From assembly GCF_014647755.1 (NCBI RefSeq), contig NZ_BMPU01000004.1, forward strand, positions 1 through 64,000: a stretch of DNA of 64,000 nt, written 5' to 3'. Every line of letters starts with the position of its first letter. The stretch's first letter is position 1. The DNA comes from Porphyromonas pasteri. GTDB lineage: Bacteria > Bacteroidota > Bacteroidia > Bacteroidales > Porphyromonadaceae. Below the pieces are notes generated by a model. The model searched no databases. It had not been told where the DNA came from and saw only the letters and a program-made list of their open reading frames with translations. The position numbers and the translations under genes are program-made. Positions 584-62,916 of the stretch are shown here, piece after piece.

Positions 584-720
584 CAGCACACACTCTGTAA
601 GTAGGCGTAAGAGGGCAATAAGGAGGCGGTGCATTTGCTGGGGATGAAAGGCGCGCGGGAAGGGAAAAGCTCCCGCATACTCCCCTACCCCACTCAATAC
701 ATATAGAAGGGGGTGCCATC

Positions 721-822
721 AACCTATATTGGTCAGCGGGCGAACCTATATAGGTCGGCGCTTCGACCAATATAGGTTGCTTTCGTGACCTATATAGCTT
801 CGCCCGCCGACCAATATAGAAT
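721..822. repeat. palindrome array A2, five 14-bp words at exact 22-bp spacing
   Basis: Words of the ACCTATATAGGT / ACCAATATAGGT family start at 721, 743, 765, 787 and 809. Spacing is exactly 22 bp, giving a 102-bp element. The first and fourth 8-bp spacers are reverse complementary at 7 of 8 positions. The third word (765-778) is the exact reverse complement of the first. Confidence 0.92.
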
Positions 823-3066: not shown

Positions 3067-4176
3067 TTACTTCTCCGATGTCGTGGGCTTCTTCAAGCCA
3101 AGAGAGGCGGGCTGGACGGTGAAGTCACTGGTCGAATTGTTGTCGTCGACAAACTTCTTCCCGTCCCACTTTCGGATAAGTGCGAGGCCAGAGTACTTCT
3201 GCCAGTCGCTCTTCGGGAGGTTCTTCGCACTGACCTCCGTGACGGCATTGTAGCCCTTATCGAAGGTATTCTTATAGGGATTGATCTTGTAGCGTCGCTT
3301 GGGGCAGACGGTGATGCAGTCCAGCGCCTTGGAGAAGGGAATCTCGATAGCGTAGAAGTCGGCGAAGAGGCTGTTGGTGACATTGATATAGTGACGGTAG
3401 CCGAGGCGCTCCTTGGTATCCTGATAGTTCTCGCGGAAGTCCTCAGGCGTCCAGGGGAGCTGTATGAGGGCGATGCCGTTCTGCCCAGAGATCTGCTTGA
3501 TACCGAAGTCCGAGTACTTCGCACCCTTCTTATCTACGCCCGTGAGGATGGGCACGAGGTCGGGGACATTGGGGTTGTTCATATGCTGGCGGTCGTAGTC
3601 ACTGTGCGTCCACTCCCAGTCGGCTTTCGTCAGGTCGATGAGGGAGTCCACGCCCTTGTAGCGCTTGGGATCTTCGCGCTCTTCGCCATAATCATCGGCC
3701 TGCTTATTGAGACGAACGAAATATTCCTTGGCGTGGTCGATGGCATACTTAGCGATGACGACCGTCTGCCCTGGCTGGATCGGATGCTCCTTCCCACTGC
3801 CAGGGAAGTAAGAGATCGTCTCGACACCGATATACTTACGGCGAAAGTCCTCCTTCCCTGCGAAGGTACGCTCGTCCGAAGGGTCGAGGGCGGTGGTGCA
3901 GAGTGCGAGACCGTCGAGGTACTTGACCTCCGAGGTGGGGTTGAAGATCGTGATGTACTGGTCGTCTTCATACCACGACTTCACGGGAGGATATCCCCAC
4001 TCTTCGGGGAAGCTCTTCGTGATGACGTGCCCGATGTAGAAGACCTCCTTGATGATGAGGTGATCGACGGAGGAGCGGGAGTTCGAGCGACGCTGGGGCG
4101 CTTCGTTGCGAGTACAGGCCATCAGCCCCGAGAGGAACACCAAGGCCAAGGCGAAGCGATATATATAAGTGCGCAT
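3067..4176 (-). CDS. DUF4876-like lipoprotein, paralogue 1
   Basis: A 369-residue predicted lipoprotein with signal segment and lipobox LSGLMAC (Cys21). The body resembles the Bacteroidota DUF4876 family, with segments IKEVFYIGH, YITIFNPTSEVKYLDGLALC and IQPGQTVVIAKYAIDHAK; the DUF assignment is from memory. It should sit on the outer membrane or in the periplasm. It is the last gene of a minus-strand cluster with a TonB receptor and three other lipoproteins, and is strongly similar throughout to the next gene (4314-5417). The role is unknown; context suggests ligand capture for the receptor at 8328-10748. Its C-terminal tail (KKPTTSEK) survives downstream of a stop codon in the paralogue. 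Confidence 0.85.
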   Translation of the reverse strand: MRTYIYRFALALVFLSGLMACTRNEAPQRRSNSRSSVDHLIIKEVFYIGHVITKSFPEEWGYPPVKSWYEDDQYITIFNPTSEVKYLDGLALCTTALDPSDERTFAGKEDFRRKYIGVETISYFPGSGKEHPIQPGQTVVIAKYAIDHAKEYFVRLNKQADDYGEEREDPKRYKGVDSLIDLTKADWEWTHSDYDRQHMNNPNVPDLVPILTGVDKKGAKYSDFGIKQISGQNGIALIQLPWTPEDFRENYQDTKERLGYRHYINVTNSLFADFYAIEIPFSKALDCITVCPKRRYKINPYKNTFDKGYNAVTEVSAKNLPKSDWQKYSGLALIRKWDGKKFVDDNNSTSDFTVQPASLGLKKPTTSEK

Positions 4177-4216
4177 AGCTGGATATAATGCTGTGAGGAG
4201 ATTAGAGGAAGCCCAT

Positions 4217-4242
4217 CCCCATGAACTTCAATAGTCATGGGG
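4217..4242 (-). terminator. small hairpin between the two DUF4876-like genes
   Basis: CCCCATGA and TCATGGGG form a perfect 8-bp stem with a 10-base loop in the 137-bp gap between the paralogues. It may end or attenuate transcription there, which would make paralogue 1 partly independent of its neighbours. Confidence 0.4.
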
Positions 4243-4313
4243 GCAAGGTCGTGAGAGGCTATAGATAAGGCTAATGAAGCCTTAATAGCAACTTACTTCT
4301 CTGAAGGAATCGG

Positions 4314-5417
4314 CTACTTAGATCCGAGCGAAGCAGGCTGTACAGCAAAGTCGCTGGTTGAGTTGTTATCGTCGACTAACTTCTTACCATCCCACTTGCG
4401 AATCAGAGCCATACCGGAGTACTTCTTCCAGTCGCTTGCTGGCGTCCTCTTATATGCCCCATCTGTGACTGCATTATAGCCCTTATCAAAGGTCGCTTTA
4501 GGCTCCTTGCTATAGGGGTTGAACTTGTATTCTTGCTTAGGGCAGATGGTGATGCAGTCTATAGCCTTGTCAAAGGGAATTTCTATGACGTGAATACGAT
4601 TGCGGTGGTGGGTAATACGAGCATTGATCGTATGTCTATAGCCACGGCGTCCCTCGGCATCTGGGTAGTTCTGGCGGAAGTCTTCAGCAGTCCAAGGGAG
4701 CTGAATCAGAGCGATACCACTCGTCTCGGTAACCTCCTTAAATCCGAAATCTACGTCATCATCCTCTTCGGCATCATACCCCGTGAAGATGGGGACGAGG
4801 TCAGGTACATTCGGGTTGTTTTTATGCTCGTCATCGGCTTGGGCATTGGTCCATTCCCAATCCACCTTTGAGAGATTCAAGAACGCTTCGATTCCCTTGT
4901 ACAGGTTGTGGTCAACAGGGGGTTCTCCATTATCGGCGAGCTCCTTATCGAGACGAGTGAAGAAGTCCTTGGCGTGGTCAATCGCATACTTAGCGATAAC
5001 TACCGTTTGCCCGGGCTGGATAGGATGCTCCTTCCCACTGCCAGGGAAGTATGAGATAGTTCCCACTCCGAGGTACTCCCGTCTGAAGTCCTTGTTCCCT
5101 TCGAATTCAAGTAAAGTAGACGGGTCAAGTGCCGTGGAGCAGAGAGCAAGACCATCGAGATACTTGACCTCTGAGGTGGGATTATAAATCGTGATGTACG
5201 CATCATCAGCATACCAATTCTGCGTCGATGGCTGGGGATACTCTTTCGGGAAATCCTGAGTATAGGCATGCCCAATATAGAAGACCTCCTTGATAACCAA
5301 GTGGTCAAGAGTAGAGCGTGAATCGGAGCGACGCTGGGGGGCTTCGTTGCGAGCGCAGGACATCAATACCGAGAGGAACAGCATCGCAAAGGCGAAGCGA
5401 TATATGTGTGTACGCAT
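4314..5417 (-). CDS. DUF4876-like lipoprotein, paralogue 2 (tail cut by a stop)
   Basis: A 367-residue lipoprotein (lipobox LSVLMSC, Cys21) that aligns end to end with the gene at 3067-4176. Both share the N-terminal signal region, the EVFYIGH and NPTSEVKYLDGLALC segments and the C-terminal KKFVDDNNSTSDF-like block. The frame stops at TAG (4316-4314). The next codons in the same frame read PIPSEK and then TAA (4295-4293), matching the PTTSEK end of paralogue 1, so this copy has lost a short tail. The function is unknown. Tandem duplication beside a TonB receptor suggests two variants of one ligand-binding or accessory part. Confidence 0.85.
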   Translation of the reverse strand: MRTHIYRFAFAMLFLSVLMSCARNEAPQRRSDSRSTLDHLVIKEVFYIGHAYTQDFPKEYPQPSTQNWYADDAYITIYNPTSEVKYLDGLALCSTALDPSTLLEFEGNKDFRREYLGVGTISYFPGSGKEHPIQPGQTVVIAKYAIDHAKDFFTRLDKELADNGEPPVDHNLYKGIEAFLNLSKVDWEWTNAQADDEHKNNPNVPDLVPIFTGYDAEEDDDVDFGFKEVTETSGIALIQLPWTAEDFRQNYPDAEGRRGYRHTINARITHHRNRIHVIEIPFDKAIDCITICPKQEYKFNPYSKEPKATFDKGYNAVTDGAYKRTPASDWKKYSGMALIRKWDGKKLVDDNNSTSDFAVQPASLGSK

Positions 5418-10857: not shown

Positions 10858-10978
10858 GGTGCGGGCATGTGGCTCGCTCACCTATTGAGATGGTAGTCAG
10901 AGATATGGCTGTGGCTTACAGCTCTTATCAGGAGGTAGAGGTTTGATTCATTCGCTATCGGCTGAGTTAGAGATCGAA

Positions 10979-11032
10979 TGTGTACTATCGGCATTGCAAA
11001 ATTAATGTGTACTATCGGCACTGCAAAATTAG
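10979..11032 (-). promoter_or_regulatory. 27-bp tandem duplication carrying two -7 boxes
   Basis: Units 10979-11005 and 11006-11032 differ at two positions. Each carries TAATTTTG on the minus strand (11004-10997 and 11031-11024), which fits the TAnnTTTG -7 consensus. The receptor operon may thus have two promoters 27 bp apart, with a leader of about 240 bases. Confidence 0.6.
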
Positions 11033-11280
11033 AGCAAACAGTGACCCATTATCCTACCATCTTGTAGGTATTTATTGCCCACCTCTACCTACCTATATGT
11101 ACCCTTCTCAGGCAAAGTGCCGTATTTAATAACCCATATACGCCCCTTATTCCCCGCAAAATCGGGCATTATGACGCGTGAGGAAAAGAAGCGTAGCTAC
11201 CCACAGAGCGACCGCTTCAATAGGCACTCTTGGCTTGATAGTATGTGGGGGCGTGACGCGAGCAATATAAGAGGAGACTA
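11033..11280. other. intergenic stretch with nothing recognised
   Basis: Short open frames occur here on both strands but none has family motifs. I see no array words or strong hairpins between the duplicated promoter and the dispersed repeat. Confidence 0.5.
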
Positions 11281-11598
11281 TTGCCGCGAGTCCTGTCCTC
11301 TATTTCGAGTGCTAAGGCATCACACGCCCAGCTCCCCGATGTACCTCTCCGAAGTGATACGCAAGCCCTTCGTCTTATCGCAAGTATTCCTCTTATCCTG
11401 CGGAGGGAAAAGCATCGTTCTCGTGAAGAAAAAAGCGCCTTCACGTAGTGGTTTTTCTGCATCTATGTACGTAGTCTTAAAGACCAGGCACGCAAATCCA
11501 AATATCCACGTACGTAGATATTAGAGCCACGTACGTAGTCCAAACTTATCTGCCACTCGTCCACAACTTTTATCCCTACGTGGAGCAACAACCTAATA
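11281..11598 (+). repeat. dispersed repeat, copy 1 (318 bp)
   Basis: This block aligns without gaps to 56340-56657, by eye about 90% identical and also 318 bp. A diverged inverted copy lies near 37560-37760. The last third holds a four-word array of CTACGTACGTAG-type palindromes. A frame running through TPSSPMYLSEV and KKKAPSRSGFS is open in the copies, but there is no conserved start codon, so I treat it as non-coding. An array of a different word (11611-11742) begins 12 bp after it. Confidence 0.85.
11463..11540. repeat. palindrome sub-array, CTACGTACGTAG type
   Basis: Word centres (GTACGT or variants) start at 11467, 11488, 11510 and 11531, steps of 21, 22 and 21. The same steps occur in the other two copies of the dispersed repeat. 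The second word is degenerate. Confidence 0.75.
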
Positions 11599-11610
11599 TG
11601 GTGAGCCTTC

Positions 11611-11742
11611 CAAAGCAATAGTGGTATGAAGTGCAAACGAGTAGTGGATGACACGCCGTACCACTATTCATTCGATGTACAAACGAATAGTAGATTGAGC
11701 ACGGAGCAATAGTCGGACGCGTGCAGAGCAGTAGTTGTTTGA
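11611..11742. repeat. palindrome array A4, six 18-bp words
   Basis: Words of the CAAACnAnTAGTnGTTTG family start at 11611, 11634, 11657, 11680, 11703 and 11725 (steps 23, 23, 23, 23, 22). It matches array A1 at 454-583 in word and unit number. It lies just upstream of mnmA. Confidence 0.82.
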
Positions 11743-11856
11743 AGGCCCGACTGCTTGAGCTTCCCCCTGCCCCTCCTGATGATATGCTCCCGATATGCCC
11801 CCTGGCTCTTGAGGAGGGCGCACGAGCTCCCCCGCCAAAGAGCACGGGAATTGCCG

Positions 11857-27760: not shown

Positions 27761-27862
27761 AACCTATATAGGTCGTTGGGCTGACCTATATTGATCCGCA
27801 GTGCGACCTATATAGATCACGAAGCGAACCTATATTGGTCGACTCACTGACCAATATAGGTT
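27761..27862. repeat. palindrome array A5, five words at exact 22-bp spacing
   Basis: ACCTATATAGGT-family words start at 27761, 27783, 27805, 27827 and 27849. The first begins AACC and the last ends GGTT; inner words begin or end GACC/GGTC or GATC. The array lies between the pheT promoter and the stop of the M16 peptidase gene. The rest of the 400-bp gap (27560-27760) shows nothing else. Confidence 0.92.
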
Positions 27863-31780: not shown

Positions 31781-31883
31781 GCCGTATATGCGCCGATAAA
31801 CTTGCGTATATACGGCGATTTATTTTCGTATATGCGGAAATATTTTTTCGCATATACAGAAATATATTTGTGCATATACGGAA
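31781..31883. repeat. palindrome array A6, CGTATATACG type
   Basis: Cores CGTATATGCG, CGTATATACG, CGTATATGCG, CGCATATACA and TGCATATACG start at 31783, 31805, 31827, 31849 and 31871, exactly 22 bp apart. It lies between two converging genes, after the kbl terminator and before the terminator of the C69 peptidase. Confidence 0.9.
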
Positions 31884-31948
31884 ATTCCGCCCCGCCTACA
31901 CGCTGGAGAATGTGCGCCTTAGCAAGCACCCCTCGATCCCCTTATATG

Positions 31949-37135: not shown

Positions 37136-37560
37136 CGTCGTGTGGTATGAATAAAATGAATAAATGTAGGCTGGAGCGCTCCGCTTCTTCCTGCCCCCTA
37201 CCCTACCAGCATACGTATATATAAGGAGGAGCTGGGCGAAGTGAAGGGTACCAAAAGAGAGCTTTGAGCAGGACTCCACGACAAAGTAAAGGCAAATACT
37301 CCGCCCCTCCAAGGCGCCGACTAAATAAATATTTTGACGAACGTAAGCACCTCGTCACCTATCACTTACACACCCCGCACCCATCTCCTCGAAGCCCCCT
37401 CTTTGGGAGCCAATCGCTAAGCCCCTATCTATACAGACGCTGACACAGCACTATACGATCAGGCGCCGCATAGCGGTACCATACAGGTGCATTTCTTCGG
37501 AGGGAAAATCTGGAAGTAGTACTGGTGTGAACCCCTACGCGTACGAGGAAAAGCTACAGA
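37136..37560. other. intergenic stretch without a recognised gene
   Basis: No supported gene here. One isolated array-like word (GTAGTACTGGTG near 37517) occurs but has no neighbours at 22 bp. The sequence leads into the diverged dispersed repeat. Confidence 0.4.
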
Positions 37561-37760
37561 CCTACGGTGGATTCATTCAGTCTACGTACGTAGATCTAAG
37601 GACTACGTGCGTGGACATTTAGATTTAGGTACCTGGCCGATAAGACTACGTACGTGGATAGAGAAATACCACTACGGGAAGCTGCATACTTCCTCGCGGG
37701 ACTGCCACTTTTTCCGCTACTGAATAAGAAAAACCGCTGTGATGGATGAAGGCCTTGCCC
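37560..37760 (-). repeat. dispersed repeat, diverged copy 3 (inverted)
   Basis: Read on the minus strand, this aligns with the second half of the 318-bp repeats at 11281-11598 and 56340-56657. The shared core includes CGTAGTGG(T/A)(T/A)TTTCT, a GACCAGG/GGCCAGG block, and ACGTACGTAG words at the same spacing. Identity is clearly lower than between copies 1 and 2, and the limits are approximate. The frame containing SRSG(F/I)S is open here too. Confidence 0.65.
37580..37659. repeat. palindrome sub-array in repeat copy 3
   Basis: CTACGTACGTAG-type words start at 37582, 37603, 37625 and 37646 (steps 21, 22, 21), the same steps as in the other copies. The third word has changed to TTAGGTACCTGG yet kept a palindromic core (AGGTACCT). 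Confidence 0.75.
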
Positions 37761-43865: not shown

Positions 43866-43967
43866 AACCTATATTGGTCGGCGGGCTGACCTATATATCT
43901 TCGCACTCCGACCTATATTGGTCGCATCGGTGACCTATATAGGTCAGCCCGTCGACCAATATAGGTT
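43866..43967. repeat. palindrome array A7, five words at exact 22-bp spacing
   Basis: ACCTATATAGGT-family words start at 43866, 43888, 43910, 43932 and 43954. The first (AACCTATATTGGTC) and last (GACCAATATAGGTT) are exact reverse complements. Spacers 1 and 4 are reverse complementary at 7 of 8 positions. It lies between hpf and the susD terminator. Confidence 0.93.
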
Positions 43968-48965: not shown

Positions 48966-49122
48966 TCACGCCCCTCAAAAACACCCGCACGGCACCCCTC
49001 AATGGAGGGCTATCCAACCGAGCGAAGAGAAAGCACTACACCATCATACACAGCGACTTACCCCACCACACAGAAACATCCTGCCACGCTCAAAAAAAAT
49101 TTCTCGCTGAGGGTGAAAAACG

Positions 49123-49225
49123 AACCAGTACTGGTCGACGAAGTGACCAGTACTGGTCACGACGCGAAGTAGTACTGGTCAATAATAGCCACCAGTACTG
49201 GTCACTTCGTCGACCAGTACTGGTT
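49123..49225. repeat. palindrome array A8 with perfect 22-bp terminal inverted repeats
   Basis: ACCAGTACTGGT-type cores start at 49124, 49146, 49168, 49191 and 49213 (steps 22, 22, 23, 22). The first word plus its spacer (49123-49144) is the exact reverse complement of the last spacer plus word (49204-49225). The array lies between the susC promoter region and the terminator of the recF operon. Confidence 0.93.
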
Positions 49226-49270
49226 CGCATCCCCCCTCCCGTGAGGTCACAGACGAGAGCACATAACAAA

Positions 49271-56313: not shown

Positions 56314-56339
56314 CATACCTCATACTACTATTGAGACTG

Positions 56340-56657
56340 TTGCCGCGAGTCCTACCCTCTATTTAGAGTGCTAAGGTATCGCACGCCCAGCTCCCCGATA
56401 TACCTCTCCGAAGTGACCAGCAAGCCCTTCATCCCTTCGCGAGCATTCCTCTTATTCAGCGGAGGGAAAATTATCCTTCTCGTGAAGAAAAAAGCGCCTT
56501 CACGTAGTGGGTTTTCTCTATCTATGCACGTAGATTTAAAGACCAGGTACGTCAATCCAAATATCCACGTACGTAGATATTAGAGCCACGTACGTAGACC
56601 AAACTTATCTGCCACTCGTCCGCAACTTTAATCCCTACGCGGAGCAACAACCTAATA
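56340..56657 (+). repeat. dispersed repeat, copy 2 (318 bp)
   Basis: It aligns without gaps to 11281-11598. Both copies sit upstream of a plus-strand gene and are followed within 12-14 bp by a palindrome array of another word. A four-word CTACGTACGTAG sub-array lies at 56522-56599. The long open frame shared with copy 1 lacks a common start and is judged non-coding. Confidence 0.85.
56522..56599. repeat. palindrome sub-array in repeat copy 2
   Basis: Word centres start at 56526, 56547, 56569 and 56590 (steps 21, 22, 21). Words 3 and 4 are CCACGTACGTAG; words 1 and 2 are degenerate. Confidence 0.75.
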
Positions 56658-56671
56658 GAGATCACTTCACA

Positions 56672-56773
56672 AAGCTATATAGCTTCGCACCGAATGCTAT
56701 ATAGGAATCCAAGCAAAGCTATATAGGAATCAGTCCAAAGCTATATAGCTTTCTTCACCATCCTATATAGCTC
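56672..56773. repeat. palindrome array A9, AAGCTATATAGCTT type
   Basis: Five words start at 56672, 56694, 56716, 56738 and 56760, exactly 22 bp apart. The first and fourth are the perfect palindrome AAGCTATATAGCTT. It lies 84 bp upstream of the -7 box of the large M16 peptidase. Confidence 0.93.
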
Positions 56774-56856
56774 TACTCACGCACCCATATACCTATATAT
56801 AGATACCTGCGCGCGTGAGGTATCTCATATAGTAGATACACACCAAAGAATTATCG

Positions 56857-62653: not shown

Positions 62654-62814
62654 CAAAAATATCTGATAAAACACCTTGCACACCCTTGACTTTCACCGAA
62701 GAAACATCCTCAGTCCGAGCTCTTCCCCTACCCCACGCAAGGCAACATCTCCCTCCACCAAAGAAGCCCCCACTACAGCCTGCCGCACCACGGAGTCCCA
62801 CAGTAAGGGCTATG

Positions 62815-62916
62815 AACCTATATTGGTCACTGCTCCGACCTATATTGGTCAGCGCACGAACCTATATTGGTCGTCACGCCGACCTATATAGATCCACCCG
62901 ACGACCAATATAGGTT
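62815..62916. repeat. palindrome array A10, five words at exact 22-bp spacing
   Basis: ACCTATATAGGT-family words start at 62815, 62837, 62859, 62881 and 62903. The first (AACCTATATTGGTC) and last (GACCAATATAGGTT) are exact reverse complements, as in A7. It lies between the divergent rplU promoter and the nuclease-like gene. The remaining gap (62917-63103) shows nothing else. Confidence 0.93.

Follow-up and report, generated by a model that had tools for sequence, protein, structure and literature searches.

A 323-bp MITE of Porphyromonas pasteri that inserts into arrays of palindromic words and has probably captured one of them as cargo

The window studied here, a stretch of 64,000 nucleotides of the Porphyromonas pasteri genome (contig NZ_BMPU01000004.1, positions 1 to 64,000), holds two full copies of a dispersed repeat, and as seen already in the preliminary description, the sequences at 11281-11598 and 56340-56657 align without gaps; their identity is 89.6%. 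The repeats are real, and their ends are corrected here to 11274-11595 (copy 1) and 56333-56654 (copy 2), both on the plus strand, since in both the TIR GAGACTRTTGC starts 7 bp ahead of the position originally given. Copy 1 runs from TIR to TIR (GAGACTATTGC ... GCAACAACCTA), its ends being set from an alignment of 93 copies and from the 5-bp duplications of other copies; neither window copy has a clean target duplication of its own (2/5 in the flanks of copy 1). Each copy contains an internal array of four words at steps of 21, 22 and 21 bp, located in copy 1 at 11463-11538 (words at 11463, 11484, 11506 and 11527, plus strand) and in copy 2 at 56522-56597 (56522, 56543, 56565 and 56586, plus strand), with an offset of 45059 between the two. 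These steps, described earlier and confirmed by direct reading, also appear in the consensus of 54 full-length copies, where four CCACGTACGTAG-type words begin at positions 183, 204, 226 and 247 with a conservation of 0.93-0.98, versus an average of 0.916 over the whole element. The diverged inverted copy that had been placed near 37560-37760 is found as a decayed relic at 37582-37758 on the minus strand, which covers consensus positions 81-258 with 72% identity (BLAST, E 5e-20). Two further observations concern the same window: two 27-bp tandem copies (AATGTGTACTATCGGCACTGCAAAATT) lie at 10977-11031, about 240 bp upstream of copy 1, and the adjacent paralogous ORFs at 3067-4176 and 4314-5417 (3067-5417 as a whole), with 74-80% DNA identity over long blocks, represent a tandem gene duplication.

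Behind each full copy, at a distance of no more than about 20 bp, stands an array of another word with a step of about 22 bp, as had been claimed for two of the copies. The array entered by copy 1 extends over 11596-11745 on the plus strand and consists of AATAGTGGT/GAGTAGTGG-type words; its first word is split as GAGCAATAT / ATATGGTG, and the next words stand at 11614 and 11637, the word after the insertion resuming in register at 11614. Copy 2 is the left arm of a composite unit, and the shared right extension behind it holds AAGCTATATAG words at 22-bp steps (56655-56791, plus strand; TRF rows 56670-56791).

The repeat of 318 bp makes up the body of a non-autonomous MITE, here called MITE-A, with a length of 322-323 bp, the TIR GAGACTGTTGC and a 5-bp duplication. 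A genome-wide search, proposed in the preliminary description along with a check of ends, terminal repeats and target duplications, detected at least 83 copies in the 2.17-Mb genome (9 contigs) by a 28-base pattern (reversed control: 0), and BLAST over the stretches examined, which include contigs C4 and C5 whole, found no fewer than 93 copies or fragments. The mean pairwise divergence among copies is 12%, and for the 20 matches on the two complete contigs the overlap with a called gene never exceeds 60 bp. No MITE-A match was obtained in any of 25 congener genomes, nor did the exact pattern match in a wider contig collection. In the aligned copies the left end is GAGACTGTTGC, and the right end is GCAACAGTCTC or the decayed GCAACAACCTA, decay of the right TIR being frequent. 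For the 58 copies with a left TIR, the 5-bp sequences that precede it and that follow each candidate right TIR were compared, and exact duplications were found at 10 copies, compared with less than one expected by chance. Five of them are A-only units of 322-323 bp (C3_53793 CTACG, C6_98172 CAGTA, C1_883638 ATATT, C1_426662 TATTG and C3_121412 ATATA), and five are composites (C1_360829 AATAT, C1_435129 AAATG, C1_302234 ATAAG, C1_733495 AATAT and C2_254743 AAGGG). Moreover in congeners, MITEs of 174-188 bp with the same TIR class and other bodies show exact 5-bp duplications in 12 of 14 cases. Because such duplications flank units of both kinds, and given these congener MITEs with the same TIRs, both the 323-bp element and the larger composite have transposed. 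The sizes (322-323 and 526-666 bp), the number of non-coding copies (at least 93), the TIRs and the constant 5-bp target-site duplications are all those of a MITE. Rather than ragged ends without any link to arrays elsewhere, the copies have ends defined by TIRs and duplications, and the link with arrays recurs throughout the genome. In one congener (G011; loci L195-L198), the sampled sequence contains about nine 187-bp MITEs with the TIR GAGACTGTTGC per 100 kb; 5-bp duplications accompany nearly all of them, and by extrapolation this density would mean more than 200 in that genome.

The composite consists of MITE-A, a 22-bp minisatellite and a 130-bp tail B ending in GCAATGGTCTC, and it moves as one unit of 526-666 bp. 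Of the 86 MITE-A copies that have a right end, 48 run on into one and the same AAGCTATATAG minisatellite, in which the number of words ranges from two to about nine; copy 2 in the window has this composite layout, but its tail is not recognisable. As for tail B, 77 bp match the right end of a resident IS at 91% identity and 47 bp are the same end inverted, so that it is an internal-deletion derivative of this 1323-bp IS5-family element; 17 of the 18 B copies outside the IS adjoin MITE-A. The IS is present in two full copies, 93% identical (C2:287572-288894 and C3:247356-248680), the former of which sits inside an array word (acctatat / tatatagc). It encodes an IS5-family DDE transposase that passes the family model NCBIfam NF033581 with 233 bits against a cut-off of 140 (E 3e-69), matches Pfam DDE_Tnp_1 and DUF772, and is 97% identical to a transposase of P. 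catoniae ATCC 51270. Between MITE-A and the resident IS no shared body was found, the TIR alone being in common, and the IS TIR GAGACCATTGC differs from the MITE-A left TIR at two positions. Both units are probably mobilised by the IS transposase or by a relative whose TIR is nearly identical. Elsewhere in the genome, a transposase pseudogene of another type (L063, C1:501190-501888; DDE_Tnp_1) has two in-frame stops and lacks GAGAC-type TIRs.

How is MITE-A connected with the arrays? In 18 of 58 copies (31%) the left junction falls in a half-word, for example ACCAATAT / AATATAGGT and ACCAGTA / CAGTAGTGGT, versus 3.1% of intergenic positions. Array words are a preferred target of MITE-A, and the preference is only partial because 40 of the 58 junctions lie outside any recognisable half-word. 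It had been suggested earlier that repeat and arrays are either parts of one element or share a type of insertion site, and both options are supported, in different copies: the former by the layout of copy 2 and the five composites with exact 5-bp duplications, and the latter by copy 1, inserted in the first word of an array, and by the excess of half-word junctions. Regarding the origin of the cargo, arrays of the AAGCTATATAG type are present without MITE in three other species (G002, G006 and G012), from which MITE-A is absent. In P. pasteri itself, a MITE-free AAGCTATATAG array at C1:511127-511313 (L264) is orthologous to one in G002 (L270, G002:C24:176699-176838), with flanking genes 94% and 68% identical. 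Since this type of array exists in three other species that lack the MITE, in one case at an orthologous locus, it probably predates the MITE and was hence captured. That conserved array lies between the genes of an HU-like DNA-binding protein and a TIR-domain-like protein, both named by eye, and its lengths in the two species differ by whole units.

The composite resembles BrickBuilt of P. gingivalis, in which leader, minisatellite and tail are likewise bounded by IS5-type TIRs starting GAGAC, and which shares with it the variable repeat number, the intergenic placement and the predicted stem-loops (Klein et al. 2015, PMC4596501). In our case this anatomy of leader, tandem repeat, tail and GAGAC-type TIRs comes with duplications. 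The sequences are not the same, no MITE-A nucleotide match being found in G006, which carries BrickBuilt-like 23-bp arrays and is probably P. gingivalis. Further differences are the unit, 22 bp in the composite versus 23 bp with another word in BrickBuilt, the copy number (more than 90 versus 19), the existence of A-only units for MITE-A, and the duplications, consistently 5 bp here and of variable length as reported for BrickBuilt (PMC4596501). Compared by TIRs alone, MITE464/PgRS and ISPg4 of the same paper are close to MITE-A, its left end being equal to the TIR GAGACTGTTGCA of MITE464 and ISPg4, while GAGACCATTGCA, the TIR of ISPg1 and ISPg9, is that of the resident IS and tail B; PgRS carries 41-nt repeats (PMC4596501). 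How the minisatellite came inside the MITE was left open in the BrickBuilt paper.

For the P. pasteri composite, the account that is very likely as a whole is that MITE-A, which transposes and often lands in array words, acquired an array as cargo in a composite with an IS-derived tail, a unit that has itself transposed. In the order of events as we reconstruct it, MITE-A would have landed in a AAGCTATATAG array, and B would have landed downstream in the same array; the inner right TIR of MITE-A would have decayed from GCAACAGTCTC to GCAACAACCTA; and the transposase would then have used the left end of A with the right end of B, by which the array became cargo. In another history the BrickBuilt-like composite would be ancestral, and the A-only copies of 323 bp would have arisen from it later through use of an internal TIR-like sequence. 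The frequency of the minisatellite (48 of 86 copies having a right end) agrees with such a history, and so does P. gingivalis, where BrickBuilt is without any full-length leader or tail lacking repeats (PMC4596501). However, it appears improbable in that A-only copies can have an intact GCAACAGTCTC with exact duplications whereas composites carry the decayed GCAACAACCTA there, the cargo array type exists MITE-free in other species, and MITE-A has no homology to the IS that gave tail B. Still less probable is a joint spread of repeat and array by homologous recombination or gene conversion between arrays in place of composite transposition: in several copies the common right extension does break off at a word (CCTATATAGG), and what follows is array sequence of the locus, but recombination would not create the exact 5-bp duplications around the left TIR and the B right TIR in five composites. 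Word-junction exchange may nevertheless be behind some truncated right sides. The proposed capture by transposition is directly testable, with the A-only MITE, the IS-derived MITE, the free array and the duplicated composite all in one genome, and the case of MITE-A offers a route to BrickBuilt-like MITEs.

Arrays occur also apart from the MITE, in the window and beyond it. Stand-alone arrays of the ACCTATATWGGT type lie at 720-820 (step 22), 27762-27861 (five words), 43867-43967 and 62814-62915 (five words), those of the ACCAGTACTGGT type at 875-980, paired with 720-820, and at 49122-49226 (five words), and one of the GTATATACGGAAATWTATTTTC type, which recurs in other Porphyromonas species, at 31783-31886. 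Arrays of the first two types are often neighbours, about 50-120 bp apart, in a higher-order arrangement (window 720-820 and 875-980, C5:951-1214, C5:7219-7481 and C5:128223-128573, for example). A census of similar 12-mers at a fixed lag, with three or more copies, gave 49 arrays at lag 22 in 432 kb of P. pasteri sequence, compared with none at lag 20 and one at lag 24; strict chains of palindrome centres were abandoned as a criterion, being too strict for words whose centres are often imperfect. Genome-wide, ACCTATATWGGT- and ACCAGTACTGGT-like words form 470 pairs at 22 bp, with none in the control. The commonest size is five words, and in stand-alone arrays adjacent words are 85% identical and adjacent spacers 28%. 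With genes called by a simple codon-score script, 52 of 57 arrays fall between genes, and 19 of these 52 have divergent neighbours, an enrichment over the 24 of 148 among gaps of 100 bp or longer.

Arrays of 3-10 palindromic words at steps of 21-23 bp occur in eight or more Porphyromonas species, and the words differ by species, for instance TCCACGTGGA and CTTCGGAGG (G001, G025), TTTCCACTAGTGGAAA (G006), TGAGGGAYRTCCCTCA (G016), GACCTACNGTAGGTC (G012), and GAGTTACCATAACTC, TTACCACCTAGGTGGTAA and others (G002); there are many word families, each at many loci. The samples were stretches of genomes, with one genome per species: in 663 kb from congeners, lags 21, 22 and 23 yield 20, 23 and 7 arrays, versus at most one at lags 20 and 24-26, and in 261 kb from other families of the order the same three lags yield one array each, none of which looks palindromic. 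Some 21-bp arrays in G001 and G025 were rejected as a different thing, namely non-palindromic heptamer repeats; such intergenic repeats of TCTAATC/TCTAACC (L157, L187, L206) show lags of 14, 21 and 28. The GTATATACGGAAATWTATTTTC type is found in 7 of 26 genomes, P. pasteri included, and its words and spacers are common to several Porphyromonas species (window 31783-31886; L163 2760-2840); in Porphyromonas sp. COT-290 such an array borders directly on the end of an IS related to the resident one. The GAGTTA family of G002 comprises 20 arrays in 406 kb, 18 of which have exactly five words, and all 80 of 80 steps are exactly 23 bp. About 25 bp outside many of these five-word arrays (L276-L289, L145, L290-L292) lie imperfect inverted motifs, TAGATAYA..AGG on the left and CCTTTATATA on the right, as possible ends of a small dispersed element. 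The arrays are also gained or lost over time, because four orthologous gaps hold an array in G002 (347-468 bp) and none in P. pasteri (-4 to 111 bp). An array is shared between these two species at one of the five orthologous gaps with an array in either, a weak number with only five gaps comparable because synteny is low.

Among known systems, REP/BIME (PMC1525189; IS1397-type insertion) are likewise palindromes scattered through intergenic DNA and favoured as insertion sites, whereas the targets here are arrays with a fixed 21-23-bp step and many unrelated words. A RAYT/REPIN system was rejected, no Y1 (RAYT/IS200-type) transposase being detected and PF01797 being without a match in P. pasteri or G002. 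CRISPR arrays have near-identical repeats of about 23-47 bp, unique spacers of similar length, and cas genes; they were rejected on repeat structure, for the words here are of 12-16 bp and vary within arrays, the spacers are of 8-10 bp, and the short arrays number hundreds. BOX elements of Streptococcus pneumoniae are modular small mobile elements with a variable number of internal repeats; the composite shares this modular layout and differs in organism and sequence. With Rfam covariance models at the gathering threshold, only a tRNA was matched in the window, and MITE-A and the arrays gave no match. No description of palindrome arrays with a 21-23-bp step was found in the open-access literature, and they look undescribed.

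As to what the arrays may do, they could be rows of dyad protein-binding sites on one helix face, about two turns apart; such phased binding is favoured because the spacing is fixed, the spacers are near random and compensatory pairing is absent. Tentatively, they might form a genus-wide phased dyad-binding platform, of which the geometry would be conserved and the words freely replaced between species and between word families within a genome, with a fast-evolving DNA-binding or structure-reading protein as putative reader, and which IS5-type elements would use as landing site and cargo. It is possible, too, that the arrays are dispersed selfish elements that do nothing for the host, and that their constant spacing was left behind by the machinery of their own transposition; the four gaps occupied in G002 alone, the many families with many loci each, and the slightly higher identity of same-index spacers (0.52 versus 0.47) are in line with this. 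Yet the persistence of words and step beside near-random spacers points to continuing constraint, and the invariant 23-bp step of the GAGTTA family likewise speaks against it. Rather doubtful is the reading that the arrays act as RNA, in which adjacent words form hairpins that terminate transcription or protect transcripts, the palindromy of the words being a sign of this role. Array transcripts are predicted to fold much more stably than shuffled controls (mean z -7.3), and ACCAGTACTGGT arrays often have A-runs on their left side and T-runs on their right; however, such fold strength is a trivial result of self-complementary words, the spacers have no complementarity beyond the type consensus, and hairpins do not need a fixed step. 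Moreover, the variable G/C position of the 20 G002 GAGTTA arrays is uncompensated (0.43 within the word versus 0.51 expected, and 0.39 across the spacer), and divergent genes flank one third of the intergenic arrays. A long hairpin in which the first spacer pairs with the last fits single arrays (49124, C5:74119), but it was rejected with no excess over shuffled partners.

The larger question raised by the arrays is why, in eight or more Porphyromonas species, palindromic words that have nothing in common retain a step of 21-23 bp. For a genus to which major oral bacteria belong, such arrays would matter for gene regulation, chromosome organisation and the targeting of mobile elements.
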